Below are positions 15,884 to 63,590 of a stretch of DNA of 64,000 bases, piece after piece. The position numbers were made by a program, and so were the translations under genes. The first letter of the stretch is position 1. The number at the start of each line of letters is the position of its first letter. Origin of the DNA: Prescottella agglutinans (GTDB taxonomy: Bacteria; Actinomycetota; Actinomycetes; Mycobacteriales; Mycobacteriaceae); contig NZ_RKLP01000004.1 in the NCBI RefSeq assembly GCF_004011865.1, forward strand, positions 1 through 64,000. Reading direction: 5' to 3'. The notes beneath the pieces were generated by a model that saw nothing but the letters and a program-made list of their open reading frames with translations, did not search any database and was not told where the DNA came from.

Positions 15884-15908
15884 GTGGTCCCGGCTGGGAT
15901 CGAACCAG
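15884..15908. repeat. Right attachment repeat (attR) inside tRNA-Val
   Basis: Identical over 25 bases to 7754-7778. It covers the T arm and acceptor 3' strand of tRNA-Val(CAC), so integration kept the tRNA complete. Confidence 0.88.
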
Positions 15909-15956
15909 CGACCTCCCCGGTGTGAACGGGACGCTCTTCCACTGAGCCACGGGACC
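15885..15956 (-). tRNA. tRNA-Val (CAC)
   Basis: A 72-nt cloverleaf on the minus strand: acceptor GGTCCCG/CGGGACC with discriminator A, D arm GCTC/GAGC, anticodon stem TCCCG/CGGGG with loop TTCACAC, and T arm GCTGG-TTCGATC-CCAGC. CCA is not encoded. Its 3' part is supplied by the integrated element. Confidence 0.95.
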
Positions 15957-16467
15957 GAACCGCGCTAACCACTCGCGGTCGAACGAGACGAAACACTAAC
16001 ACGCACTTGCGCCGAACACGAATCCCCTGGTTGTCATTCGTTTCGCAGGGACTCGGACCCGATCCCCGAGGGCGCGCACGGCAGTACGGCGGACGCTCCC
16101 CCACAACGCGTCCCCACTCGTCCACGCGCAAGAAGCGTCCCGAACCGAGCGCTCACGAATCGAGCGTCGGGGGGCCCGCGGCCGAACCACACTGCCGAGC
16201 GTGAGTACGGGCGATCCCGTAAGAGGCGGTCGCGGACGTCTCCACCACCGTCGCCGGCGTCTCGGATCCACGACGTTCGCGAGCACCGACGCCTGTGGGC
16301 ACCTGGGAGCGCATCGAATCCTTCCGCTCGTGTTCATCGAGAGGCGAGGCCGACGCCGCCGAAACGACAGGTTTCGGCCCGACAGGTCGGTTATCGCAAG
16401 CAGTTGCCCCGAAATCAGCCTGGATACACCCGTCGGAGATCTTGGTTTTCGGCTCTGACCTGGCGAT
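15957..16467. other. Intergenic stretch without a recognisable gene
   Basis: About 510 bp between tRNA-Val(CAC) and the tRNA array. Reading frames here have arginine/proline-rich compositions typical of non-coding high-GC DNA, and none has a ribosome site with a plausible protein. I see no conserved element apart from the array promoter at the end. Confidence 0.6.
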
Positions 16468-16497
16468 TTGTGCCTTTCTCAAATGGTCCGCTAATGT
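16468..16497 (+). promoter_or_regulatory. Candidate promoter of the tRNA array
   Basis: TTGTGC (16468-16473) and TAATGT (16492-16497) are spaced by 18 bp and lie about 44 bp upstream of the first tRNA-Gly, in a locally AT-richer patch. Confidence 0.42.
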
Positions 16498-16540
16498 TCT
16501 CACCGCACCGGGGAAGCGGAAACGCCCCGCCGGAGCAAAT

Positions 16541-16613
16541 GCGGATGTAGCGCAGCTGGTAGCGCATCACCTTGCCAAGGTGAGGGTCGCGGGTTCGAAT
16601 CCCGTCATCCGCT
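16541..16613 (+). tRNA. tRNA-Gly (GCC), copy 1
   Basis: A 73-nt cloverleaf: acceptor GCGGATG/CATCCGC, D arm GCGC/GCGC, anticodon stem TCACC/GGTGA with loop TTGCCAA (anticodon GCC), T arm GCGGG-TTCGAAT-CCCGT. It is identical to 16830-16902. Confidence 0.97.
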
Positions 16614-16638
16614 CGAGAGGTTGGACTCGACCTTTTAT

Positions 16639-16709
16639 GGTGGAGTGGCCGAGTGGTGAGGCAACGGCCTGCAAAGCCGTGCACACGGGTTCGATTCCCG
16701 TCTCCACCT
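16639..16709 (+). tRNA. tRNA-Cys (GCA)
   Basis: A 71-nt cloverleaf with acceptor GGTGGAG/CTCCACC, anticodon stem ACGGC/GCCGT and loop CTGCAAA (anticodon GCA). It directly abuts the next tRNA-Val. Confidence 0.96.
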
Positions 16710-16710
16710 C

Positions 16711-16782
16711 GCGCGATTAGCTCAGCGGGAGAGCGCTTCCCTGACACGGAAGAGGTCACTGGTTCAATCCCAGTATCGCGCA
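16711..16782 (+). tRNA. tRNA-Val (GAC), copy 1
   Basis: A 72-nt cloverleaf with acceptor GCGCGAT/ATCGCGC, anticodon loop CTGACAC (anticodon GAC) and T arm ACTGG-TTCAATC-CCAGT. The CCA end is encoded (16783-16785). It is identical to 16970-17041. Confidence 0.96.
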
Positions 16783-16829
16783 CCAAGTTTCGAGGCAGTA
16801 TGCTGCTGAAGAACTTGAGTGTTACACAT

Positions 16830-16902
16830 GCGGATGTAGCGCAGCTGGTAGCGCATCACCTTGCCAAGGTGAGGGTCGCGGGTTCGAATCCCGTCATCCG
16901 CT
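16830..16902 (+). tRNA. tRNA-Gly (GCC), copy 2
   Basis: Base-for-base copy of 16541-16613. The flanking sequences differ, so the duplication is old or kept uniform by gene conversion. Confidence 0.97.
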
Positions 16903-16928
16903 CCACGATCGGCCCCTGTGGCCGGTCA

Positions 16929-16956
16929 GGAAACCCCGAGGACACTCGGGGTTTCC
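16929..16956 (+). terminator. Hairpin between tRNA-Gly copy 2 and tRNA-Val copy 2
   Basis: GGAAACCCCGAG / CTCGGGGTTTCC is a perfect 12-bp stem around GACA. It may end one transcript, so that the last tRNA-Val is transcribed by read-through or its own promoter. Confidence 0.6.
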
Positions 16957-16969
16957 GATCTGAAGGCCC

Positions 16970-17041
16970 GCGCGATTAGCTCAGCGGGAGAGCGCTTCCC
17001 TGACACGGAAGAGGTCACTGGTTCAATCCCAGTATCGCGCA
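16970..17041 (+). tRNA. tRNA-Val (GAC), copy 2
   Basis: Identical to 16711-16782, with encoded CCA at 17042-17044. It is the last gene of the array and is followed by a terminator. Confidence 0.96.
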
Positions 17042-17046
17042 CCACC

Positions 17047-30512: not shown

Positions 30513-31039
30513 GAGAAGAACGCCAACTCAGGCTATCGCCTGGCCTTCCGCCGTCGTGGGCGGCGGTTACTGGTCCGGTCTCGGTGAATGCACTGGCCGA
30601 CTCGGCATACAGAATGGTGACGGTTCCCTACACGCCGGTCCCGACATTTCTCCAGTGCACCCGGCCCTTCCGTCAGTCCACCAATCGACAGGAACACCCA
30701 CATGCGGAGCCGTGGGCTCCGACGCAAGCCGACCTCCCCGGGCAGTCTCTCACTGCCGAACACCGGAAGCGCTGCCGAAACAACCGATCCGATGTAGCCT
30801 AGGCCGACACGCCAGACGCGTGCAGAATCGACGCTAGGCACTTCTGGCTGATCACGCCAAGGCCCTCAGGGCGACACGTTAGAGCACTAACTGACATACA
30901 CGATTTGCCGCCCGCACGCCCGGAGAAACATGTGGACCCATGCTGAAATCTGGGCGCTGCACATCCCGCGAACGATGCTGGTGTAAGTTCCCGTAGCGGC
31001 GCCGCGTCGGCGGTGCTGGACTTGAGAATCGGGGAGGGT
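30513..31039. other. Gene-free left flank of the HEPN-ATPase island
   Basis: About 530 bp between the molybdoenzyme and the HEPN gene. Open frames here lack ribosome sites and recognisable domains. Base composition shifts from chromosomal GC-rich to a more mixed composition towards 30880, so the left edge of the acquired segment probably lies within it. No tRNA or direct repeat was found. Confidence 0.5.
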
Positions 31040-31555
31040 ATGCCGACGCTGTCGACCGCGGATGAACTGCTCTTGAGCATTGCTGGCGCAAAGTCAACCG
31101 CAATTTCAAGCATTCCGAACTTCATTGGAAAAGGATTCAATTCGGCCAAGCTAATCTCGCAGGTCACTTCAGACAGGTTCGACCTAGCGGGCGAGCACCT
31201 TCGGATCGGCGACTACTTCTTTAGGCAGGGGGAGTTCAGGGCTTCAATCAGCCGACATTACTACGCAATGTACCATTCCGCTCGAGCGGTGGTGTTTGCA
31301 GTAGTTCAGGGCGATGATTTTCAGCAGCACTCAGTTCTTCCAAACAATCTGCCCGGGGACTTACCCCCGTCGAAAGCTGCGGCGCCCTGGCGGGATGAGC
31401 TGACAAAGGCTCGGCTCACTCGAAATCAGGCGGACTACGACCTGTATCCACTATCGAAAGAAAAATGGGAGCACGACGCGCGAAATCTGGCTGCGATCGC
31501 CCCACTCTTCGTATCAGCATTTTCAGACTACGCATTGGATAAGGGTTTGGTTTAA
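31040..31555 (+). CDS. HEPN-domain protein, probable ribonuclease-type effector
   Basis: A 171-residue helical protein. The core ASISRHYYAMYHSARAVVF (about residues 68-86) matches HEPN domains of the UPF0332-like group. It contains R-x6-H (Arg72 to His79), compatible with the R-x4-6-H metal-independent RNase motif. HEPN proteins act as RNA-cutting toxins or abortive-infection effectors. ATG 31040 follows GGGGAGGG; an in-frame GTG at 31013 is less likely. The stop is one base before the ATPase start, so the two are one operon. Codon use is clearly lower in GC than the neighbours, indicating transfer. Confidence 0.75.
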   Translation: MPTLSTADELLLSIAGAKSTAISSIPNFIGKGFNSAKLISQVTSDRFDLAGEHLRIGDYFFRQGEFRASISRHYYAMYHSARAVVFAVVQGDDFQQHSVLPNNLPGDLPPSKAAAPWRDELTKARLTRNQADYDLYPLSKEKWEHDARNLAAIAPLFVSAFSDYALDKGLV

Positions 31556-31556
31556 T

Positions 31557-33197
31557 ATGTCAAGCAACTCGATGGATCTGATACGGCCGACACTCGACGG
31601 TGCCGGCATCGTCGCTTTGGAAATTCAGGAACGAGAGTTCCCAGGCGAGCACTGGGTAATTATTACGGTTGACCCCAAGTCAGTTGCACTCGGCCAAAGT
31701 CTTGCGGGAGAATTGGAAAAGCGACTTCTCCGTGGCGACGAATCATCGATTACCGTATTGTTCCGAGGGGCTATCCACGACTCTACCGATGCGGAAGATT
31801 CACAGTCTGGCGGTAAGCTGGCCGATCCTGCAGTCGATCGCCTAATTCAGCTTCTCGAAGCGCGTTCGCGCACCTCCGATGCTGTCCCCAGTTTGAAGTA
31901 CATGGAGGACCCAAGGGCGAGTTTGCCGGCAATCGGATCTTCTAGACATCACCTTATCTATGGACGTCGCGGCGTGGGCAAGACTGCGCTCTTGCTTGAA
32001 GTTAAGCGGCAAGCCGAAGAAGCCGGCCATGTTGTGGTCTGGCTCAATTCACATACCATTCGGCGCCTAAATGCCGATGAGGCATTTTCGGTAGTCGTCG
32101 AATCGATTCTTGAGGCAGTGGTTATTCGAGCTGGCTCAAGTGAATCGTCGGCAATTTCCGTGTTGGACCAACTGCGGCAAACAATATCCGAATCCACCGA
32201 TTCGGGGGCGACCGCCGTTAGCAAGATTCCCGAGATGAATCGAACCCTGCGCAGGGTGCTAAGAACTGATCTGCTGAGGCTGTTCGTCTTCCTGGATGAT
32301 TTCTACTTGTTGGATTCGACAGTCCAGCCGTATCTACTGGACCACGTTGCTAGCGTATTGCGCGATTGTGATGCATGGATGAAAATCGCAAGCATCGAGC
32401 GTTTGACGCGCCCCTTCGAAGTATCGACTAAAGTCGGAATTGAATCGCCTCATGATGCACTGATTGTGGATCTCGACGTCACATTGGAGAACCCCAGCAC
32501 TGCGCAAAACTTCCTTGAATCAGTACTTGAGTCGTACCTTTCCACTGCCGGCATTAAGTCGGCTAGGAAGATTGCAAAGATCCAGGCCCTGGGACGGCTG
32601 GTCCTCGCGTCGGGTGGCGTACCTCGAGACTACCTGAACCTGTTTTCTGCTTCGATTCTTGCTGCTCGCGACCGCAGCTCACAGGCGGCGGAAATCGGGA
32701 AAGAAGATGTTGCGGTTGCTGCAGGAAGGTACTCAAGAAGTAAGAAGCGCGACCTTGAACAGGATGTTATGGAAGAGAGTTCAGCGATCATCATCTCCGC
32801 TCTGGAGGATGTGAAATCTCAGGCGAAGGACTCGGGAACCACGTATTTCAAGGTTGATATTGCACAAAAGACGCATCCGGGGTATGAGATATTGGCCGAT
32901 CTTGTGGATCTGAGATTTGCACACTTGGTTCAGTCATCGATTTCTGATCAGCATCGCGCTGGCGTGAAGTATGAGGCATATGTGCTTGCATTGAGTGAGT
33001 ACACCGAGGTTAGACTTCATCGCGGCCTGGACATTCTCGATATCGAAAATGGGCAGTGGCTGTGGCAGAAGACAGGAAAGGCGGGTACGTCTACAAAACT
33101 TACAGCCACAAATTTTCGCGACAAGTTGCGCCTCGCTCCACTCCTCGATCTTGACCGACTTGCGAAGTTCGCTAATACCGTCGAAGAATCTCCGTAG
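31557..33197 (+). CDS. P-loop (STAND/AAA-like) ATPase partnered with the HEPN protein
   Basis: A 546-residue protein. The N-terminal ~115 residues form an uncharacterised alpha/beta region. The NTPase module has Walker A GRRGVGKTALL (136-146), Walker B LFVFLDDFY (242-250) and an arginine-rich IERLTRPFEVS (about 282-292). A winged-helix-like region with YFKVDIAQKTHPGYEILADLV (about 433-453) follows. Its organisation recalls STAND/KAP-like ATPases of defence systems, in which the ATPase senses infection and frees a toxic effector. It is tightly coupled to the HEPN gene. No known named system is recognised with certainty. Confidence 0.72.
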   Translation: MSSNSMDLIRPTLDGAGIVALEIQEREFPGEHWVIITVDPKSVALGQSLAGELEKRLLRGDESSITVLFRGAIHDSTDAEDSQSGGKLADPAVDRLIQLLEARSRTSDAVPSLKYMEDPRASLPAIGSSRHHLIYGRRGVGKTALLLEVKRQAEEAGHVVVWLNSHTIRRLNADEAFSVVVESILEAVVIRAGSSESSAISVLDQLRQTISESTDSGATAVSKIPEMNRTLRRVLRTDLLRLFVFLDDFYLLDSTVQPYLLDHVASVLRDCDAWMKIASIERLTRPFEVSTKVGIESPHDALIVDLDVTLENPSTAQNFLESVLESYLSTAGIKSARKIAKIQALGRLVLASGGVPRDYLNLFSASILAARDRSSQAAEIGKEDVAVAAGRYSRSKKRDLEQDVMEESSAIIISALEDVKSQAKDSGTTYFKVDIAQKTHPGYEILADLVDLRFAHLVQSSISDQHRAGVKYEAYVLALSEYTEVRLHRGLDILDIENGQWLWQKTGKAGTSTKLTATNFRDKLRLAPLLDLDRLAKFANTVEESP

Positions 33198-33260
33198 TGG
33201 GGCTCTTCAAGAGTTGGAGCGAAGTTCACGGCGCGCGACTCCACCGCAGATCCGGACGGG

Positions 33261-33620
33261 TGTCGCTGCCCGGGGTGCGGCGCAGTCGGCCGGGATCGGC
33301 ACACGATCGTGCGGGTAGTGACGGACCTGCCCGTGGTTGGACTCCCACCAATCCTACTGGTTAAGGCTCCAGCCTTCCACTGCGCGCATGCTTGGTGTGA
33401 GCGAGAAGCGTTCCCTTACAACACAGATCGGCTCGCCTCCACTGGGGCGTCGACCTCTCGGCGATATGTTCGTTATGTGCTGCGGCGGTTGATGGTCGAC
33501 CGCACGTCGTCGCCGCTGTCGTCGCCAGGGAGCCCGGTGCGTCCTTGGACACATTCGACACGATCATGGTCGACGCCACCACAAGGATCGTCGGCATCCG
33601 CCCTGTTTTCAGGTTGTGGC
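33261..33620 (+). pseudogene. ISL3-family transposase remnant
   Basis: Frame from 33261 reads CRCPGCGAVGR...[23 protein letters not shown]...CEREAFPY, the zinc-finger and start of ISL3 transposases. After a frameshift near 33505 the match continues as [19 protein letters not shown] and [10 protein letters not shown]. The DDE catalytic part, inverted repeats and start codon are missing, so it is a dead fragment. Confidence 0.7.
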
Positions 33621-33624
33621 GCAG

Positions 33625-33770
33625 TGCTATCTGAAGACCTCGATCGTGATCACTACCAACCGCGGCGTCGGCGAATGGAGCGACGTCCTCGGCGACACCA
33701 CCGCGCTGCGGCCACGCTCGACCGACTCCCGCACGGTTGCGGACACCGACGAGTACCGCTGTACATACGA
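33625..33770 (+). pseudogene. IS21-family istB (helper ATPase) remnant
   Basis: [23 protein letters not shown] is the IstB-like C-terminal motif. A frameshift then moves the match to [13 protein letters not shown] and back to DTDEYR. Only about 45 codons of the ~260-codon gene remain. It directly follows the ISL3 fragment, so two different IS remnants were joined by deletion. Confidence 0.65.
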
Positions 33771-33808: not shown

Positions 33809-33814
33809 TCGGAT

Positions 33815-34003
33815 GAGGGCAGCGATTTGACCAACTGCTCGACGCTCACGCGTGGACCGCTGAAGAACGGGATCTCCTCGCGCACGTGCATGCGGGCCTC
33901 GGTGGCGCGCAGATCGCGCATGAGGTCGACGATGCGGTCCAGCTCGGAAGCCTCGAACGCGAGGATCCACTCGTAGTCGCCGAGCGTGAACGCGGGCACC
34001 GTG
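33815..34003 (-). pseudogene. Second, diverged copy of the hemQ 3' end
   Basis: The minus strand encodes [20 protein letters not shown]...[14 protein letters not shown], matching the last 62 residues of the intact HemQ at 35261-35956 with six substitutions. The DNA is about 90 percent identical by eye. The rest of the gene and the normal stop codon are missing. The divergence is too high for a recent tandem copy. Confidence 0.85.
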
Positions 34004-34025
34004 TCCCCGGTGGCCCCACCGGCCG

Positions 34026-35147
34026 CTACTTGAGCTTGAGCTCTGCCACCACACCGGCGTGATCCGACGCCCACAGCGGTGCTGGCGCCCCACGGAACGG
34101 GTTCGCGCCGACTTGCGTCGCCTTCTTGGCCTGCCAGTCACCCTTGGTCAACACCAGGTCGATTCGGGTGGCGTTCTCCGAGACCGGGTTGGTCAGCAGC
34201 TCGTTCTGGCAGCAGGTCGGCCCGGGCGCGTTGCGAGTGGCCGCGGGCCAGGCGTCGACGAGACCCCCGGCGACCAGGTTCGCGTAGGTCGGTGTGGTCG
34301 ATCCGCCTGCGTCGGAGTTGAAGTCACCGACGGCGATCACCGGCAGCGGACTCGTGTTGACGATGGCCAGCGCCTCGGACCCCTGCGCGACCTGGATCGC
34401 CGGCGCCGGGGACTCGGTTTCGAGGTGGGTGTTGAAGAAACGGAACGACGCACCGTTGACGGTCGCGTCGACCGATGTCCAGCCGCGAGTGAACGTGACC
34501 GGCTGACCGGTCACCGTCGGCACGGTGAGCTGGGCGGCGTAGCGGCCGTCGGCCGGGTTCGAGGTAGTGACGCCGGCGCGCGCCAGGATCACGTCCCGGT
34601 CGGTGAGCCGGATGTCCGACAGCGGCAGCCCCACCGCCGGATTGACCGGCGCGGCCGGGTCCAGGTAGGGCGCCTCGACGTCCGCGTTCGTGGATGTCGA
34701 GACCACCGTGTAGTTCAGGCCGCGTTCGGCCAGCTCGCCCTGCAGGATCGTGAGGAAGTCCTGGAACACCGTGGTGGCGTTGGGGCCGGTGAGATCGGAG
34801 GGTGTCTGCGTCCGCCAGAGCGAGACCTCCTGCAGGCCAACCAGGTCCGGGCCGTTCGCGGCAATCTCGTCGGCCAGCGCCTCGGCACGGGCCGGGAAGT
34901 CAGTGGCGATCACGTTGGCCCGGGCCTGGGTGACGGCCTCGACGAACTGCTGGAAGGTCGTCGAGGTCACGATGTCGGTCAGTCCCGTACCCAGGTACAG
35001 GTTCCGGGTCATGACGGTGACCTTCTTGTTGTTCGGTTCGCCGCCCGGTTTCGCTCCCGCCGCGGGCAGTGCGACGCCGGCGAACAGGGCCAGGAACGCA
35101 AAAAGGACGGCGAGACGCCGTCCTGTGCTGGTGATGCGATTCGACAT
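34026..35147 (-). CDS. Secreted endonuclease/exonuclease/phosphatase-family protein
   Basis: A 373-residue protein with a Sec signal peptide ([20 protein letters not shown]...AAGAKPGG). The EEP fold motifs are present: [22 protein letters not shown] (metal Glu), RFFNTHLE (His), [10 protein letters not shown] (Asp/Asn) and the terminal [11 protein letters not shown] (Asp-His). Members cleave nucleic acids, lipid headgroups or phosphoinositides; the substrate is open. ATG 35147 has a GGGAGGA ribosome site. It is inserted between intact hemQ and the diverged hemQ fragment, so it probably arrived by transfer. Confidence 0.87.
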
Positions 35148-35260
35148 ACTGGGTCCTCCCGTGCTGGTCGGTGACCTGAACATCACGAGGAGGTTCTCAC
35201 ATCGCGGGCGGTCGACGACCGGAAACGGATCGATCACGATCCGGCCGCCGACCGACGCGA

Positions 35261-35956
35261 TCAGGGCAGGGAGTTCACCAGCTGCTCGACGCTCACGCGC
35301 GGACCCGTGAAGAACGGGGTCTCTTCGCGCACGTGCATGCGGGCCTCGGTGGCGCGCAGGTCGCGCATCAGGTCGACGATGCGGTCGAGCTTGGGGGCCT
35401 CGAACGCGAGGATCCACTCGTAGTCGCCGAGCGCGAACGCCGGGACGGTGTTGGCGCGGACGTCCGGGTAGGTGCGGCCGGCCATGCCGTGATCGGCGAG
35501 CATCTTGCGGCGGTCGGCGTCGGGCAGCAGGTACCACTCGTACGAGCGCACGAACGGGTACACGCAGATGTAGTCGCCCGGCTCCTCGCCGGCGATGAAC
35601 GCCGGGACGTGGCTCTTGTTGAATTCGGCGGGACGGTGCAGCGCGACGTTGGACCACACCGGGTCGCTGGCCTGGCCGAGGTCGGTGGTACGGCGGAAGT
35701 CCGCGTACAGCTTCTGCAGATCCTCGAGGCGTTCCGCGTGCGTCCAGATCATGTAGTCGGCGTCGGCGCGGACACCCGCGACGTCGTAGATGCCGCGGAC
35801 GACGGTGTCGGTGTCCTCGTAGGACGCGAAGAAGTCCTGCGCGTTCTTCACCGCGGCGGCGCGGTCCTCACCGAGGACGCCGGGCTGTGCCTGGAAGACC
35901 GAGAACATCGCGTAGCGAAGGGTGGAATTGAGCTTGTCGAAATCGAGGCGTGCCAT
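35261..35956 (-). CDS. hemQ: HemQ, coproheme decarboxylase
   Basis: A 231-residue chlorite-dismutase-fold enzyme that converts coproheme to protoheme with peroxide, the last step of the Gram-positive haem branch. [13 protein letters not shown], a central [17 protein letters not shown] with the reactive tyrosine, [11 protein letters not shown] (haem His region) and the [10 protein letters not shown] strand are all present. ATG 35956 follows GAGG. It lies 4 bp after cgoX in the hemE-cgoX-hemQ operon, as in Rv2678c-Rv2676c. The coding sequence is complete, although a diverged piece of its 3' end lies 1.3 kb downstream. Confidence 0.94.
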
Positions 35957-56374: not shown

Positions 56375-56755
56375 CTAGATCTCTGTCGGGTACACCCGAG
56401 CACAGCCACCGACCACGCGAATCGACTCTCGTGCGACACCTGCATCGTGCGGGTTCGCGAGTTCGACCATCACGATCCCGGGATGCAGGTCCAGGATCAG
56501 GACCCCGTCAGCCGTAGTGTCCACAGCCTTGCCGACGAGCGTGGTTTGCCCGCCGACGGATTCGATCGAGATGGCCTCGTTCGAATCCGTCTCCCGGAGC
56601 GCGACAACCGAACCCGGCACCTCCACCTCCACGTCCAGCACCGCCCCGGACGCGATCGGATCGTCACCCATCCAGATGGCCTGGAAGGCACCCCGGGCAC
56701 TGGATACCTCGATGCGATCGCCTTGGATACCACCGGCTTTCACGGCCACCTGCAT
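56375..56755 (-). CDS. Small hypothetical protein of the immunity array
   Basis: A 126-residue mainly beta protein: GDRIEVSSARGAFQAIWMGDD, VLDVEVEVPGSVVALRETDS and GVLILDLHPGIVMVELAN. ATG 56755 has GAGGGG eight bases upstream; the GTG one codon before is also open. This length and alternating strand pattern is common for polymorphic-toxin immunity proteins, but no family is recognised. It may be an orphan immunity gene left by earlier toxin cassettes. Confidence 0.6.
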   Translation of the reverse strand: MQVAVKAGGIQGDRIEVSSARGAFQAIWMGDDPIASGAVLDVEVEVPGSVVALRETDSNEAISIESVGGQTTLVGKAVDTTADGVLILDLHPGIVMVELANPHDAGVARESIRVVGGCARVYPTEI

Positions 56756-56838
56756 CACTGCTCGCCCCTCGAAAGTGCGTCCCGAAGCGGACGCGCGCCC
56801 TGTAGATCACCAATTCAAGCCGGCCGATACAGCCACGA

Positions 56839-57141
56839 TCAGGAAATCAACCTGAACAGTCCTTCGCTGTAATACTCGACTTTGGATCCACCCGACACCC
56901 CTTCAGCGATCTTGGAGGCGAGGATTCTCCCCTCCCGGTCCAACCGCTGGATCGCAGCCACCGAATCGGGATCGCGCCTGGCCTCGGCGGACAACTGGAT
57001 GATCGACTGATACCGACCGTTCCAGGCTTCCAGATCCCGAGTAAGAGCATCGGAGACGCCCAGCGAGACGGTACTGGTCGGACCTGACCCGACCACGGTG
57101 ACGACGGGGTTCATGTAGTCCGCAGAGAGCCTCAGATACAT
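56839..57141 (-). CDS. Small actinobacterial hypothetical protein (MYLRLSADY family)
   Basis: A 100-residue protein beginning MYLRLSADYMNPVV and ending KVEYYSEGLFRL, the pattern of a common small family found in actinobacterial toxin and accessory loci (function unknown). The centre is helical (LTRDLEAWNGRYQSIIQLSAEA, IQRLDREGRILASKI). ATG 57141 has GAGG upstream; a TTG at 57165 would lengthen it by eight residues. Likely an immunity or regulatory protein within the array. Confidence 0.62.
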   Translation of the reverse strand: MYLRLSADYMNPVVTVVGSGPTSTVSLGVSDALTRDLEAWNGRYQSIIQLSAEARRDPDSVAAIQRLDREGRILASKIAEGVSGGSKVEYYSEGLFRLIS

Positions 57142-57210
57142 CAACGCACCGGCCTCGACATCCAACTGGGCATCTTCACGGATTCAAAGAAATAGCGGAA
57201 GTCACTCTCC

Positions 57211-57567
57211 CTATGCGAACAGTGCCGACTCCATGATCTCCACGCGATCGCCCAAGACCACCCGAATATCTCCAACCTGGTTTCCCGATCTGAACTCGAT
57301 CACCATTCCGACATTGCAACCTTCGTCACGGACTCGAAGCGAGATCGCGCCCTCCCGGTAGATCCGAATGCACTCGCCCTCCCGGTCGAGCTTGATCGAG
57401 ACGGAACGCAGAAGCGGATCCGCCACAAGTTGGAAGGTTGCGCCAAGACCTACCCACGAAATCGAGACACCACCTGGAAGATCGCGGACTTCCTCGACCG
57501 CGATCAGCTCGGACGGAATATCCTCCACCCTAGGCAGGTCGAATATCCTGAACACAGCCTCATTCAC
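57211..57567 (-). CDS. Putative immunity protein coupled to the Imm50-like gene
   Basis: A 118-residue beta-rich protein (GVSISWVGLGATFQLVADPLL, SVSIKLDREGECIRIYREGAISLRV). The GTG start overlaps the stop of the Imm50-like gene by 4 bp, so both are translated together. No named family fits, but the coupling and size suggest a second immunity protein for the same or a related toxin. Confidence 0.62.
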   Translation of the reverse strand: MNEAVFRIFDLPRVEDIPSELIAVEEVRDLPGGVSISWVGLGATFQLVADPLLRSVSIKLDREGECIRIYREGAISLRVRDEGCNVGMVIEFRSGNQVGDIRVVLGDRVEIMESALFA

Positions 57568-57980
57568 CGGCCCTCGAGAGGTGTGGCGGACCGTCTGCTG
57601 TCGTGATAGGCACTGATCTTGGCCACCCGTATCCAGCGCGCGAGAATCGTGCAGTCCGGAACAGGATTCGACCGAAACCTCAAAAGGTCGTCACCAATAC
57701 TATCGATCGACAGGTCGGCGATCATGGTGGTCTTCCATTCTCTGATCGACAAACTCTCGACCCCAACGATCGCGAGTTCCACCTGAATTGTATTCACCCA
57801 GGTTTTCCACTTCTCCGGCGGATCCTCCGGGAACTCACTCAGATCGAAGCGGACCTCCACGTCGGAACCGTCCCGGCGTAGTCGGAACTCGTGAATTTCC
57901 ACCCCAGAGAGGGACGGAATCTTGTCACCGTATATTGACCGGATCACCACCGGATTCAGGAGAAGTTCCACCCAGTTCAT
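57564..57980 (-). CDS. Imm50-like immunity protein
   Basis: A 138-residue protein whose N-terminal text follows Imm50: NWVELLLNPVVIRSIYGD then PSLSGVEIHEFRLRRDGSDV, EVRFDLSEFPEDPPEKW and QVELAIVGVESLSIREW. Imm50 proteins neutralise toxins of polymorphic toxin systems. The cognate toxin is not the intact one next door, whose own immunity gene is at 58144, so this is probably an orphan that protects against a related strain. ATG 57980 is used; the gap upstream (164 bp) shows no other gene. Confidence 0.7.
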   Translation of the reverse strand: MNWVELLLNPVVIRSIYGDKIPSLSGVEIHEFRLRRDGSDVEVRFDLSEFPEDPPEKWKTWVNTIQVELAIVGVESLSIREWKTTMIADLSIDSIGDDLLRFRSNPVPDCTILARWIRVAKISAYHDSRRSATPLEGR

Positions 57981-58143
57981 CCAACGATCCTTCCATCACT
58001 GTTCCGGAACTGGTCGATCGCCGGCGGGATGCGGTTCTACCTCAGGAATCGAATTGCGAACAGAATTCGTCGAGATTTCACCGGAACCCCTAATCAATTT
58101 CGCCTTACCGCCCGGATTTGCACCAAATGGTCGGCCAAATAGT

Positions 58144-58587
58144 TCACTCTTCGAGAACTATTATCCACACCCCATACTCCTCAGAGGTAACTCCAATAAT
58201 CGGGTACCCAGTCAATGCCGCAGCGACAAATTCCGGCTCTCCATCGTGCGGCGCCAATTCTTGCGCCAACTGGAGGTCCCCAGAAATCCGCACACGATAC
58301 CACGGGTTTTCCAGTGCGCCCGGGCCGGATGTGCTGAGAAGGAAGGACTCGTCAGCATCGAAGAGTCCGCAGCGAGTTGCGACTTCTCTCCAATTCTGAT
58401 TCACAGAGTCCAGATACCCTTCGGCCGCGTAATCTACAACGAGGTCCGGCTTCACATCACCATCTATCACCGCCTTCCACGCACTGACCGGAAGAATATC
58501 TCCGGCCGATGGTGCGCGTCCCAGTATCTCCAACCCGGCGCCATGTATTCTCGTCGCCGATTCGTCAGCCATTGCGTCTCCGATCAT
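58144..58587 (-). CDS. Cognate immunity protein of the RHS toxin
   Basis: A 147-residue (or 142 from ATG 58572) alpha/beta protein directly downstream of the toxin gene. ATG 58587 overlaps the toxin stop (ATGA), and ATG 58572 has GGAG at good spacing. Motifs are SAWKAVIDGDVKPDLVVDYAAEGYLDS and YRVRISGDLQLAQELAP, with no named family. Position alone makes it the immunity gene for the C-terminal toxin module: such pairs swap together. Base composition is lower in GC than the toxin's YD-repeat core. Confidence 0.75.
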   Translation of the reverse strand: MIGDAMADESATRIHGAGLEILGRAPSAGDILPVSAWKAVIDGDVKPDLVVDYAAEGYLDSVNQNWREVATRCGLFDADESFLLSTSGPGALENPWYRVRISGDLQLAQELAPHDGEPEFVAAALTGYPIIGVTSEEYGVWIIVLEE

Positions 58588-61500
58588 TCGACTGGATAGT
58601 AGAAGTGATGTCGTCCATCCACAGGACGATACCGCTCATGCGGCGAGGTCGTATCCCATCCGAAGTTGACGGCAGAAGTGCTTGGATCGCCTTTCGGAAG
58701 CCCAGCATGGAAGTGCGGCCCCTGCCGCGGGTCGGAAACGTGTTCAACAACTACCCGGGATCCATCGTCAGTTTCAAACTGCATATAGTGCCCCCATCCC
58801 CCCGGATCATTCGAGTATCGATAGCCAGGAAGGCCCCTGCGATGCATATCGCCGCCAACCTCCCAACTCGCATCGGGTGGAGTGCCTCTTGGGATTCCAG
58901 CTCGGTCAAAGGCGGCGTCCCGCGCAAGCTCCCGATCTGAGAATTCCCGATTGTCGCCGCATGGCTTCAATCCCAGCGGATCCGACCACACCGTCGGGTT
59001 GTGCGGGTAGCTGTTCGGGTTCGGCGACGGCGCGAGTCCCAGCGGGTCGATGGTCGCGTAGCGCGCGGTGACGGGGTCGTAGTAGCGGTGCAGGTTGTAG
59101 TGCAGGCCGGTCTCGTCGTCGAAGTACTGGCCGGGGAACCGGATCGGGGTGTCGGCCGCGCCGGTCCAGGACGTGCTCCCCCACAACGACATCGCCGACC
59201 ACCCCGCGACGTCGGCGGTCCCCGGGTCGACCAGTTCGGTCGGCGTGCCGACCAGGTCGGTGACGATCGCGTAGAACTCGGCGTCCACGGAGGCCTGATC
59301 CGCCAGGTCCACCGTCGGCACCGAGGCCTGGGTCAGCGGCGCGTGCGTTCCCGGTTGATAGGTCCACCGGGTGACGCGGTCAGACGTGGACTGCTCCACC
59401 AACGTCGTTGCATCCCAGGTGAACACGGTCCGTTCCGCCACCGACCCGTCCACGGCGAGACGGGACTTGGCGGTGCGCCGGCCCAGGGCGTCGTAGCTAT
59501 ACCGCCACTGCGTCCCGTCCGGCGTCGACACCTCGACCATCTGGTCGAACGCGTCGTACCGGTACTGCCAGACGTCCGGCTTCCGCGACAGCCTGGTCGT
59601 GACCTTGCGGATCAGTCTGCCGGCGTCGTCGTAGTGGAACTGAGTGCGCCCGTCCCGGACCAGCAGCGTTCCACGGTACTCACGCCGACCTGCGTCGTCG
59701 GCAATCGCCGTCGCGGTCTGCGTCACGATGTTGCTCAACGCGTCGTACGAGTACCGCTCCACCGCGGTGCCGTCGTCGACCACCGACGTGATGCGGCCCG
59801 CCGCATCCAGTTCGAACTGCCGGCGCAGCATTCGGTCGGTGGTCGTCGTCTGCTCGACGAGATAGCCGTCCGGCCGGTAGTCGAACACGTCGGACCGCAG
59901 CACCCGCGAAGCGGCGGCCGGGCCGGAATCGAAACTCAAACTCAGCGACGACGCCGGATGCGCCACAGCCTCCTGCATGGTGAGCCGGCCGCGCGAGTCG
60001 TGGCGGCGGGTGATCCCCACCTCTCCCGCCCTCCACCCGGTGACCGCGCCGCGCGCGTCGTAGGTGAGACCGATCGAGTGCCCGTCGACCGCCACCGAGG
60101 CGACGCGGCCCGCCGCGTTCCAGCGCCACCCGGTGACACCGCCGGTGTGCGAACGGCGCTCGACGCGTCGCCCGAACGGATCGTGGTCGAAGCGCAGTTC
60201 GCCCGCTCCGTCGACGGTCTGCCGCGCGAGCTGCCCCGCCGCCGTGTACTCGAACTCGACCGTGTGGACCGGATCCCCGCCGACGCCGCTGACCGCCGAC
60301 AGCGTCCGTCCGACCAGATCGTGGGTGTAGCGGCGGAACTCGCCGCTGTCGGCGGTGACGTCGAGCAGGCGGCCCAGGATGTCGTGCGAGTGGTGGCGCG
60401 TCACGCCGGTCGCGGATGTCACCGTCGCGATGCGACCCGCGGCGTCGTGCGTGTAGGTGGTTCGGGCACCGTTGAAATCGGATTCGGCCACCAGACGCCC
60501 GTCCGCGTCGTACTCGTACGACCAGGTCTGGCCCAGCGGGTTGGTGACCGCCGTCAGGCGCCGCTCGGTGTCCCACGCGTACGCGGTGAGCGAGCCGTCC
60601 GGGTCGATCCGCGAGGCCACCAGATCGAAGGATCCGTACGTGTACGACGTGACGGCGCCCACGGGATCGGTGTGCCGCAGGAGGTTTCCCTCGCCGTCGT
60701 AGTCCCACGACTCGACGGCGACGTCCGGGTGCGTTCGCTCGACGAGCTTCCCGTCGGGCGACCACCGCAGTCGCGTCACCGCGCCCGTCGCGTCGGTCAC
60801 CGAGGCGGCCCGCCCGAACGCGTCGCGCGTGATCCGCGTCGTCGCTCCCATCGGGTCGGTGACGGCGACGGGCAGCCCGGCGTCGTCACACTCCACGAGG
60901 GTGCGGGCGCCGGTCGGCTCGGTGATCGAGGACACCGCCCCGGTCGGGTGGTAGCTGTACTCGGTCCGCGCGCCCCCGGCGTCGGTGACGGCCACCAGGT
61001 TGTCCGTGGCATCCCAGTCCTGGCGGACGACCGTGCCGTCGACCTGGTGGACGGCGACCGGCCTGCGCGGCCCGGCGTAGTCGACGGTGACCGAGTGCCC
61101 GTCCGGCCGGGTGATCTGCGCGACGTCGCCGTCGGCGGTGTAGCGGTACCGGGTGACGGCCCCGTCCGGACCGGTGACCCGCAGCGGTTCGCGGCGCTCG
61201 TTGTAGTCCGTGTGCGTTCGAGAGCCGTTCGGCGACATCAGGTCTCGTTGACGGAGGTCGCTGTCGAACCCGTGCGCGGTCTGCGCCCCGAGCGAGTCGG
61301 TGACCACAGTGACCGACCCCGAACCGTCGGCCGTCGGCGCGTAGTCGAAGCGGGCGGACATGATGCCGTCGGTGCCGTTCTGGACCACGACCCGTCCGTC
61401 GGCGTCGTACGTGTTGACCATCCGGTTGCCGTTGGCGTCCTGCCACGACAGCATCCGACCCTCGGCGTCGTACGTGTAGCGGGTCGTGCCGCCGAATCCG

Positions 61501-63590
61501 TTGGTGACCGCGGTGAGGTGCCCACCGTCGTAGCCGAAACGGCGGACCGCGACGGCGCCGCCCGAGTCCGGGTCGATCACCGACAGCGCACCGATCCGCC
61601 CGCCGCGGGCGTCGACGAGCACGCGGTAGCCGCCCGAGTGGGACACCTCGACCGGCGCACCGTCCGGGCCGTAGTGGAATCGGATACGGTTGCGGAACCG
61701 GTCCGTGATTGCGCTGATGGCGATGTTGCCCAGCGCCGAATCGACCCCGCCGAGTTCGGGTTTGGGGGCGAAGTGCCAGGTGAGCGACCGGTCCGGGTCG
61801 TACACCGCGTAGCCGCCGGTCTCGGTCCGCGCGAGCGTCCAGCGCTGCAGCGACTGTCTCGGACGGACGGGTACGCCCATCTCCGGGTGCGGATAGACCA
61901 CCATCACGCCGTCCTCGGCGAGCAGGGTGACACCGGATTCCTCGACCACGATCCGCATGTCGATCGTCGCCGACCAACTCGGGCCGAACCACCGGCCGAA
62001 CCCGTAGCTCGAGCGATGACGCCGCCCGAACACGAGCGGCAGCACACCGGGCAGCGTCAGATCGGTTTCCGGCAGCAGGAACTCGCCGGTGGCGGCATCG
62101 ACCGGGTCCTGGCATTCGGTGACCTGGTTGCTCGTCTGGTCGCTCGCCGGTCCGTTGTCCTCCGCGGTCCGCGCCGCCCCGGCGTCGGATTCGGCGAGAT
62201 GCTGCGGGTTCGGGTTCTCGCCCTCGGGCGGACGGGTGAAGTCGGGGTCGTGGCCGGCGCCGGTCGGACCCTGGTCGTGCGCGGGGGTGGACTGGTCCGG
62301 GCCGCCCGGGTCCGCACCGTGTAGCGACGACGGTGAATCGATGTCCGGCGCATCGATTCTCGGGGCGTCGGCTCCCGGTGCCTCCGCGCGGGGGACCTCG
62401 GGCGTCGGGACGTGGCCGGCCGTGTCCGCCACGCGATCGACGGTCCGCAGATCGCTCCCCAGATCAGCAGCGATCTCGACCGCGTGCATGGACGTCCGCG
62501 CACCGGCCACTCCGGCGCCGGCGCCACCCGTCGCCGCCGTCAGCAGCGCGTCTCCGGTGAGCGCTCCCGCGAACTCGAACGGGTTGGCCCGTGCGTCGGC
62601 GAGGAACGCGTCCACCACGGCCCCCGGATCCGCCGCCGCCACCACGAGGCCGGTCGTCAGGTCGCTCAGTCCTTCGACGTACTCCGCCGGGTGGCTGAGG
62701 TTGTACGGGTCGACGGGGTTGACCTGTCGCACGAACTGCACGAGTCCGGTGACGCTGGTGACGAGACCGGAGGTGAAGTTGACGCTGCCGTGCTCGAGCA
62801 CATCGGTCAGGTCCCCGAAGTTCGCGGCCATCCGCTGCGTGAACGGCGGCTCCTCGGGCGCCGACTCGGTCAGGGCCGCCAACTGACCGGCGATCTGCGA
62901 CGCGGCGTTGTCGCGCTCGGCCCGGGCGGCACGCAGGGTCTCCACCGCATCGGCGTACATCGCCGTCCACGAATCGACCACGGGGGTCCGCGCACGCTGC
63001 TCGCCGCTGAGCGCGTTGTAGGCGGCCTTCGTCGCCCGCTCCTGCTGTTCGGCCTGCTCCCACCGCGCGATCGCGTCGGCCGCGCGCGCCTGCGCCGACT
63101 CGATCGTGTTCGCCCACCAGGTCAGTGACTGCGCGGCGGACGCCATCGCATCGGCAGCGTCCTGCCACAGCGCCGGCTGTCTGTCGTAGACGGCCTGGAA
63201 CGCGTCAGCCGCGTCGCCGGTCCAGCCGGCGGCGTCGACCGTGCGTAGGGAGGTCCCGGTGGACCCGATGTTCGTGCCCAGTTCCGTCAGCGTGGTGACG
63301 GCCTCGTTGACCGCACCGGCGTCGCCACGGATCAGTTCCCGCGGATCGGTGGTCTGGCCGAGTTCGAGCTCGTCGACCGCACCCCCGGTGCTGCTCGCAA
63401 CCCGATCGCCGAGGTCCGTGAGGACGTCGGCAACCCCGTCCGCGCCCAAGCCGCGGGCGACACCCGCCAGGCCGTCGAGACCCGCATCGGCCATCTGGCC
63501 GGCCTTTTCCAGCACCCCTTCGGCCGCGTCCTCGACGAACTCACCGACCTTGTCCAGGCCGCCGATGACGTCGTCCCACCCATAGCCCAT
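58584..63590 (-). CDS. RHS/YD-repeat polymorphic toxin with T7SS-type N-terminus
   Basis: A 1668-residue protein. Residues 1-260 are helical and WXG100-like (AAGWTGDAADAFQAVYDRQP, around 119-138), the T7SS-secreted type N-terminus. A Pro/Asp-rich linker leads to a DUF6531-like entry (PVDAATGEFLLPETDLTLPG, about 495-515). About 900 residues of YD repeats follow (for example TRYRYTADGDVAQITRPDGH). The RHS core end is YYDPVTARYATIDPLGLA and DPLGLKPCG (about 1500-1543). The last ~125 residues are a separate toxin: PGYRYSNDPGGWGHYMQFET, VVVEHVSDPRQGPHFHAG and DGRHHFYYPVE. Its His clusters suggest a nuclease. ATG 63590 has GGGGGAGAA upstream. Confidence 0.9.
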   Translation of the reverse strand: MGYGWDDVIGGLDKVGEFVEDAAEGVLEKAGQMADAGLDGLAGVARGLGADGVADVLTDLGDRVASSTGGAVDELELGQTTDPRELIRGDAGAVNEAVTTLTELGTNIGSTGTSLRTVDAAGWTGDAADAFQAVYDRQPALWQDAADAMASAAQSLTWWANTIESAQARAADAIARWEQAEQQERATKAAYNALSGEQRARTPVVDSWTAMYADAVETLRAARAERDNAASQIAGQLAALTESAPEEPPFTQRMAANFGDLTDVLEHGSVNFTSGLVTSVTGLVQFVRQVNPVDPYNLSHPAEYVEGLSDLTTGLVVAAADPGAVVDAFLADARANPFEFAGALTGDALLTAATGGAGAGVAGARTSMHAVEIAADLGSDLRTVDRVADTAGHVPTPEVPRAEAPGADAPRIDAPDIDSPSSLHGADPGGPDQSTPAHDQGPTGAGHDPDFTRPPEGENPNPQHLAESDAGAARTAEDNGPASDQTSNQVTECQDPVDAATGEFLLPETDLTLPGVLPLVFGRRHRSSYGFGRWFGPSWSATIDMRIVVEESGVTLLAEDGVMVVYPHPEMGVPVRPRQSLQRWTLARTETGGYAVYDPDRSLTWHFAPKPELGGVDSALGNIAISAITDRFRNRIRFHYGPDGAPVEVSHSGGYRVLVDARGGRIGALSVIDPDSGGAVAVRRFGYDGGHLTAVTNGFGGTTRYTYDAEGRMLSWQDANGNRMVNTYDADGRVVVQNGTDGIMSARFDYAPTADGSGSVTVVTDSLGAQTAHGFDSDLRQRDLMSPNGSRTHTDYNERREPLRVTGPDGAVTRYRYTADGDVAQITRPDGHSVTVDYAGPRRPVAVHQVDGTVVRQDWDATDNLVAVTDAGGARTEYSYHPTGAVSSITEPTGARTLVECDDAGLPVAVTDPMGATTRITRDAFGRAASVTDATGAVTRLRWSPDGKLVERTHPDVAVESWDYDGEGNLLRHTDPVGAVTSYTYGSFDLVASRIDPDGSLTAYAWDTERRLTAVTNPLGQTWSYEYDADGRLVAESDFNGARTTYTHDAAGRIATVTSATGVTRHHSHDILGRLLDVTADSGEFRRYTHDLVGRTLSAVSGVGGDPVHTVEFEYTAAGQLARQTVDGAGELRFDHDPFGRRVERRSHTGGVTGWRWNAAGRVASVAVDGHSIGLTYDARGAVTGWRAGEVGITRRHDSRGRLTMQEAVAHPASSLSLSFDSGPAAASRVLRSDVFDYRPDGYLVEQTTTTDRMLRRQFELDAAGRITSVVDDGTAVERYSYDALSNIVTQTATAIADDAGRREYRGTLLVRDGRTQFHYDDAGRLIRKVTTRLSRKPDVWQYRYDAFDQMVEVSTPDGTQWRYSYDALGRRTAKSRLAVDGSVAERTVFTWDATTLVEQSTSDRVTRWTYQPGTHAPLTQASVPTVDLADQASVDAEFYAIVTDLVGTPTELVDPGTADVAGWSAMSLWGSTSWTGAADTPIRFPGQYFDDETGLHYNLHRYYDPVTARYATIDPLGLAPSPNPNSYPHNPTVWSDPLGLKPCGDNREFSDRELARDAAFDRAGIPRGTPPDASWEVGGDMHRRGLPGYRYSNDPGGWGHYMQFETDDGSRVVVEHVSDPRQGPHFHAGLPKGDPSTSAVNFGWDTTSPHERYRPVDGRHHFYYPVE

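Follow-up and report, generated by a model that had tools for sequence, protein, structure and literature searches.

Background

Placing a HEPN effector under the control of an ATPase is a known logic. Several described systems bear on it more or less directly. ORC/CDC6-clade ATPases recur in conflict systems, according to passages of PMC10853773 and PMC8195603, and in the DUF499 (Ava_2192) HEPN-AAA+ systems, or "BR" type 1, a HEPN domain is linked to an ORC/STAND-type ATPase, often by fusion, and accompanied by a methylase and a helicase (as given in excerpts of PMC12839542). Excerpts of PMC3710099 describe a dyad in which a HEPN gene (MAE_18760) is paired with a ParA/Soj ATPase gene, and state that in the HEPN-MNT system (HepT-MntA, type VII) the antitoxin gene almost always lies upstream. 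With regard to catalysis, the same excerpts present AF0298, a HEPN-T protein, as devoid of the canonical histidine, report aspartate in place of this histidine in several HEPN-T proteins, and allow for alternative active sites in HEPN proteins of this kind.

Here we describe a pair of genes, one encoding a HEPN protein and the other a P-loop ATPase, found in a window of 64,000 nucleotides (positions 1 to 64,000 of contig NZ_RKLP01000004.1, assembly GCF_004011865.1) of Prescottella agglutinans. On balance, we favor the view that this pair is a mobile two-component anti-phage module of the abortive-infection type, as yet undescribed.

A GC-poor gene pair at a variable site

The HEPN gene (P0001, plus strand, 31040..31555) encodes a HEPN-T (PF05168)-like protein of 171 amino acids from an ATG start, with an alternative, longer start at the GTG at 31013; the ATPase gene (P0002, plus strand, 31557..33197), also starting with ATG, encodes an AAA_16/ORC-CDC6-like protein of 546 amino acids. 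The two genes are co-directional, and the single base 31556 separates the stop of the first from the start of the second. The GC content of the stretch 31040-33197 is 52.6% versus 68.0% for the whole window; none of 619 module-length sliding windows is as GC-poor, the lowest value outside the module being 56.9%, and the third-position GC of the two genes is 59% and 55%, compared with 91% in the neighboring molybdopterin gene. Downstream lie a remnant of a transposase gene (33297..33582, no strand assigned), which is 67-69% identical to stretches of Rhodococcus plasmids, with "transposase family protein" annotated under two of the matches, and a remnant of an IS21 istB gene (33592..33734, plus strand as read from the sequence), which shows 81-85% identity to plasmid stretches, many of them annotated as istB, and has counterparts of 83-87% identity in two genus-mates. 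The adjacent open reading frames, the depressed GC content and the insertion-sequence wreckage, all three of which figured in the original prediction, are thus borne out.

Among 13 genus-mates, 10 contained the left flank at length and were compared (in G091 and G105 the match was short, and in G130 there was none). Both flanks align in all 10, and the intervening stretch with the module, approximately 30604..33761 (no strand assigned), is absent; in one of these genomes (L110), the flanks are only 32 bases apart.

The site between the molybdopterin gene and hemQ is variable in the genus, as other open reading frames occupy it in L111, L112 and L118. Some of these have signal-peptide-like starts, and the 3.7-kb insert of L118 includes a lipase-like frame, all named by the look of the sequence. 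In the window, hemQ (chlorite dismutase family) has its 3' end in two copies of 193 nt (33812-34004 and 35259-35451; 90% identical), which flank a minus-strand gene of the exonuclease-endonuclease-phosphatase family whose stop is at 34026. The 10 compared genus-mates have just one such 3' end, joined to the rest of the gene, so the duplication has the look of an additional insertion at this site, distinct from that of the module. Elsewhere in the window, the region 56400-63590, with the second lowest GC dip, encodes on the minus strand a YD-repeat (RHS-like, by the look of its sequence) protein of 1668 amino acids; past the C-terminus of this protein, small low-GC open reading frames (57564-58587) are possible immunity or orphan genes. 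Furthermore, six tRNA genes (Val, Gly, Cys, Val, Gly, Val) are clustered at 15884-17044.

The two genes are inherited as a unit

Genome contigs were scanned with five ATPases as seeds, yielding 85 confirmed loci, 80 of which were kept. A HEPN gene lies upstream of the ATPase gene in 50 of these 80, a proportion that leans towards paired ATPases because all five seeds had a HEPN neighbor; with one Paraburkholderia plasmid, there are 51 paired loci. In this and the following tallies of conservation and context, sequences rather than events are counted, and near-identical Streptomyces loci (L021-L026, L057) enter the conservation, GC and integrase figures several times. The distance between the two genes mostly ranges from a short overlap to 15 bases; longer overlaps, as well as the one gap of 102 bases, at L096, where the ATPase is in two pieces, may reflect the mechanical choice of starts. 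The HEPN protein and the ATPase are the only families common to all 51 paired loci, and the next most frequent family occurs in 11, so that the pair has no other constant neighbor. Across 48 of 52 pairs (the window, L054, L075 and L096 were left out), pairwise distances in the HEPN and ATPase families correlate with r = 0.957, the maximum in 2000 permutations being 0.197. This correlation shows joint inheritance of the two proteins, not their binding.

The N-terminal domain of the ATPase (residues 1-92 as modelled; 31557..31832, plus strand) tracks the presence of the partner. In a profile search, this domain was found in 50 of the 51 ATPases with a HEPN gene, the exception being L075 (a Bacillota bin outside the 48-pair tree), and in none of the 19 solitary ATPases that contain a P-loop and whose start lies within the contig. 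Forty-three paired ATPases went into this profile, and 42 of these also belong to the set of 51; among the 9 paired ATPases outside the training rows, 8 have the domain. Independently of the profile, no paired ATPase has its P-loop beginning before residue 126, whereas in the solitary ATPases that start within the contig it begins at residues 48-105. Taken together, the counts and the P-loop positions indicate that the N-terminal domain marks those ATPases that have a partner gene, and it is this co-occurrence that suggests a coupler role for the domain.

The other 30 of the 80 loci fall into several groups. At L059, the HEPN gene is frameshifted, and at the contig end of L070 the HEPN C-terminus is weakly matched (E 0.018). 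The two Pseudonocardia eucalypti loci, L053 and L058, retain the N-terminal domain and have no detectable HEPN gene; directly downstream of the ATPase, they encode related proteins of 246-248 amino acids with one or two hydrophobic stretches (L053:11620-12360 and L058:11780-12526). This protein is a possible alternative effector, and such a swap of partners, at two loci of one species, fits the logic of exchangeable effectors; a search of 397 genomes of the order, run without a positive control, found it in none. In 26 further unpaired loci, the N-terminal domain was not detected: 7 are cut by the contig end or broken, and the other 19 are the solitary ATPases mentioned above.

These 19 (L067, L071, L073, L074, L076-L079, L081, L083, L085-L087, L089, L090 and L092-L095) come from many phyla and share no neighbor family in more than three loci; the open reading frames of L093 and L095 are shortened.

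Patchy distribution and association with mobile DNA

The 48 pairs in the tree come from Actinomycetota, Pseudomonadota, Planctomycetota, Acidobacteriota, Armatimonadota and Candidatus Poribacteria, several of them from metagenome bins. Within the host's own lineage the pair is rare: it is present in 4 of 301 sampled genomes of the family and in 1 of 14 in the genus, and a draw across the order gave a full-length match in 4 of 298 genomes, with the HEPN partner confirmed by profile in the two of these that were new. The low GC content is a general property, as the module is more than 3 points below its flanks in 45 of the 47 loci (out of 51) that have more than 5000 flank bases for the comparison, the median difference being 13.5 points. 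Within 10 kb, a tyrosine-integrase family is represented in 11 loci, and 10 loci apiece have an FtsK-like and a GntR family. All of these loci are from Actinomycetota, some being the near-identical Streptomyces ones, and the set of neighbors is like that of actinomycete integrative elements. The idea of a two-gene HEPN-ATPase module of foreign composition, which originated from the window alone, is therefore supported, the unit being kept far beyond this genome and, in several cases, residing on mobile or island DNA.

Could this be an ordinary accessory gene pair, such as a stress or metabolic regulator, that has merely spread horizontally? The lack of constant neighbors is compatible with such a role, but the patchy presence, the low GC and the island or element contexts of some loci fit selfish or defensive genes better, and we consider this explanation very improbable.

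The main rival to the defense reading is a toxin-antitoxin (addiction) role, whereby the HEPN protein would act as an RNase that inhibits growth, with the ATPase as antitoxin, the two keeping an island or integrative element in place with no dedicated phage sensor. Two genes that overlap or nearly touch, with integrase and transfer genes nearby in Streptomyces and its relatives, are what would be expected of such a unit, and the HEPN-MNT pair and the HEPN-ParA/Soj dyad, both covered in passages of PMC3710099, are precedents. The gene order, however, is the opposite of the one that the same source gives for HEPN-MNT; a protein of 546 residues with a match in just one of 72,556 plasmid records (three queries all led to this one) would be an unusual antitoxin; and the N-terminal domain is kept in the two P. 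eucalypti loci where no HEPN gene was found. In view of these points, addiction appears rather unlikely as the function of the pair.

The scarcity in plasmid records also weighs on the defense reading itself, together with the viral contigs, which, scanned with P0002 alone (a query that reaches close relatives only), yielded no relative; in both respects the pair is unlike many defense systems. The search of phage records produced a single weak match, from a Bradyrhizobium phage, and there a transposase lies between two short ATPase-like open reading frames.

A HEPN protein with an atypical motif

The protein has the four-helix HEPN fold, the absence of which the original prediction had named as a reason to abandon it. 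Of 46 family members, 33 match the PF05168 profile at E<=0.01, with 1.2e-8 as the best value; the protein from the window scores 18.4 bits against a cut-off of 22. A search of a viral structure library gave no match at E<=0.001.

The proposed catalytic motif fared less well. The letters R72-x6-H79 are indeed present, within the stretch R72-x-YY-x2-Y78-H79 (31253..31276, plus strand), in which R72 is conserved in 51 of 52 relatives and Y74, Y75 and Y78 in all 52; position 79, however, is histidine in only 33 relatives, asparagine in 11 and glutamine in 8, and 2hsb has threonine in the place of R72. We accordingly reject R72-x6-H79 as the catalytic motif: very probably, it does not occupy the position of the HEPN-defining Rx4-6H. 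That position probably corresponds, as judged from a sequence alignment rather than a superposition, to R128-x3-D132-Y133, with aspartate replacing histidine, within R128-N-Q-A-D132-Y133-D134 (31421..31441, plus strand; R128, D132 and Y133 in 51 of 52 each, with one gap); this segment aligns with LREESDYG of 2hsb (AF0298, R..DY), and at this aligned place the window protein does not have the canonical Rx4-6H motif. Hence, mutation of R72 and H79 alone would be a poor test of function, as H79 is not conserved and R128-x3-D132-Y133 probably stands at the motif position. The missing motif does not expel the protein from the HEPN-T clade, given the aspartate-for-histidine cases in the excerpts of PMC3710099. 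A third conserved element, the G91-D92-D93...H97 loop (31310..31330, plus strand; G in 49 of 52, D92 in 48, D93 in 51 and H97 in 41), is a candidate part of an alternative active site.

RNase activity is uncertain inasmuch as the canonical catalytic histidine is apparently missing. The HEPN protein might, then, be a non-catalytic adaptor that binds nucleic acids or nucleotides, leaving the work to the ATPase, for instance as a DNA-bound ORC-like remodeller. The apparent replacement of the canonical histidine by aspartate, and the asparagine or glutamine at position 79 in 19 of 52 relatives, would agree with this. Such an adaptor seems improbable to us, as R67, R72, D93, R128 and D132 are near-invariant, every aligned row except the partial L096 keeps a histidine at position 79, 94 or 97, and alternative active sites are allowed for, at least in the passages of PMC3710099 cited above.

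The ATPase

The assignment of P0002 as a P-loop ATPase, made initially by inspection, is corroborated by both motifs and profiles. Walker A, GRRGVGKT (31962..31985, plus strand), has G136, R137, R138, G139, G141 and K142 in 52 of 52 relatives each, and Walker B, VFLDDF (32286..32303, plus strand), has D247 in 52 and D248 in 51 of 52. Two Pfam families score over their cut-offs, AAA_16 with 41.2 bits (cut-off 32.6) and ORC-CDC6-like with 38 bits (cut-off 27), and each is matched by 43 of 44 family members at E<=0.001, which places the protein with the AAA+/STAND, ORC-CDC6-like ATPases. Further downstream, VPRD in the context GGVPRDYL (32619..32630, plus strand; V in 51, P in 50, R in 51 and D in 51 of 52) presumably resembles the GxP motif of STAND and archaeal ATPases. 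The original prediction had found no nameable system matching the ATPase termini; given the two Pfam families, this is no longer so for the protein as a whole, but it does hold for the termini in profile searches against the PDB, in which neither the N-terminal part (best E 0.17) nor the C-terminal part (best E 0.85), where ORC/CDC6 proteins have a winged helix, found a convincing relative.

A defense context for some loci

The homologs' neighborhoods, proposed at the outset as the place to look for defense islands, give a mixed answer. The Paraburkholderia plasmid copy adjoins genes annotated as SIR2, ATP-binding, PIN and Eco29kI restriction-modification (R-M), and the PADLOC scan of near neighbors gave one SIR2 and one HerA match, presumably the plasmid genes. 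Within 3.5 kb of the pair, the matches listed include type I R-M, AriAB, Cas3e, DruE, GajB and reverse transcriptases; the matches listed for the far-flank control also include R-M and Cas families. At E<=1e-12, 230 + 112 families were matched for 227 near proteins and 70 families for 118 far proteins, but these family counts are not numbers of proteins, as one methylase alone matched 45 models; of ten near neighbors scanned singly, two had a match, an AriAB homolog and a type I methylase, at one locus each. The near scan covered 227 of 231 selected proteins of at least 120 amino acids (three end pieces and one ATPase fragment were dropped) from loci other than the Streptomyces loci L021, L022, L023, L025, L026 and L057; for the far control, 137 of 174 selected proteins were drawn at random, and manual removal of 19 that lay at a locus end or close to it left 118. 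Defense islands are thus one context of the pair, with enrichment unproven because the control also holds defense genes.

A proposed mechanism

If the pair is the anti-phage module favored here, the following sequence of events can be envisaged. The ATPase would act as an NTP-dependent switch and detect a sign of infection, and its N-terminal domain would dock and hold the HEPN protein. Once triggered, the ATPase would free or assemble a HEPN dimer, which would cut cellular or phage RNA (tRNA or mRNA) by means of a non-canonical site, possibly made of R72, Y74/75/78, D93 with a neighboring histidine, and R128-D132-Y133, so that growth would stop before the release of phage.

Tentatively, a broader scheme can be considered, which we regard as possible but doubtful. 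The pair would belong to a family of conflict systems in which the small N-terminal domain of an ORC/STAND-type switch is dedicated to coupling it to an effector encoded by a separate gene. This effector would usually be an aspartate-for-histidine HEPN RNase and sometimes a membrane protein, the whole being modular and spread over at least six phyla.

Should the proposal be correct, it would add a module for defense or killing that went unrecognized in the present searches of PADLOC-DB and NCBIfam, and provide a test case for the wiring of AAA+/STAND switches to separate HEPN effectors. It would also make a case for RNase activity in HEPN proteins without the textbook histidine, a matter raised in 2013 for AF0298-like proteins, as seen in excerpts of PMC3710099.

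Comparison with known systems

Searches of the system databases returned nothing decisive for the window module: the best PADLOC-DB 2.0.0 matches were HEPN_IX (E 3e-4 over 43 residues) and mad8 (E 0.015), neither of them strong, and no NCBIfam model scored over its cut-off. The best NCBIfam matches of the ATPase, both below cut-off, were the Sll1717 family (NF047389, E 3e-11), membership in which we reject at 42.9 bits against a cut-off of 75, and DS41_1 of the DS-41 antiphage system (NF053860, E 2e-9), likewise rejected at 36.9 bits against a cut-off of 370; DS41_1 was over its cut-off in none of 200 genomes of the order. Among the matches listed from the open-licence PubMed Central literature, no description of the HEPN-ATPase pair was found.

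The pair is not a HEPN-MNT system: the partner is a P-loop ATPase instead of a nucleotidyltransferase, no third gene is constant over the 51 loci, the gene order is reversed, and the histidine of the Rx4H motif of that group is not kept at R128-x3-D of the window protein. The dyad with ParA/Soj is likewise a HEPN gene paired with an ATPase gene, but the ATPase there is of the ParA type, whereas here it is AAA_16/ORC-CDC6-like and the HEPN family is matched by PF05168; P0002 has 13 Pfam matches at E<=1, none of them to a ParA or CbiA family, so membership is rejected; in one relative (L061), CbiA does match (E 0.0055), but it stays under its cut-off and ranks after AAA_16. The DUF499/"BR" type 1 systems share the link of HEPN to an ORC/STAND-type ATPase; in contrast to their frequent HEPN-ATPase fusions and their methylase and helicase companions, the genes here are separate, and as any third family is limited to 11 of the 51 paired loci at most, membership in this type is rejected as well. 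On the structural side, AbiV (PDB 9bj6, titled as an RNase in a two-component antiphage system) is a weak match to the window HEPN protein. Compared with AF0298 (PDB 2hsb), the window protein has an extra N-terminal stretch, the match to 2hsb beginning at residue 37, an arginine (R72) where 2hsb has its threonine, the GDD loop and, as a family, an ATPase gene downstream.
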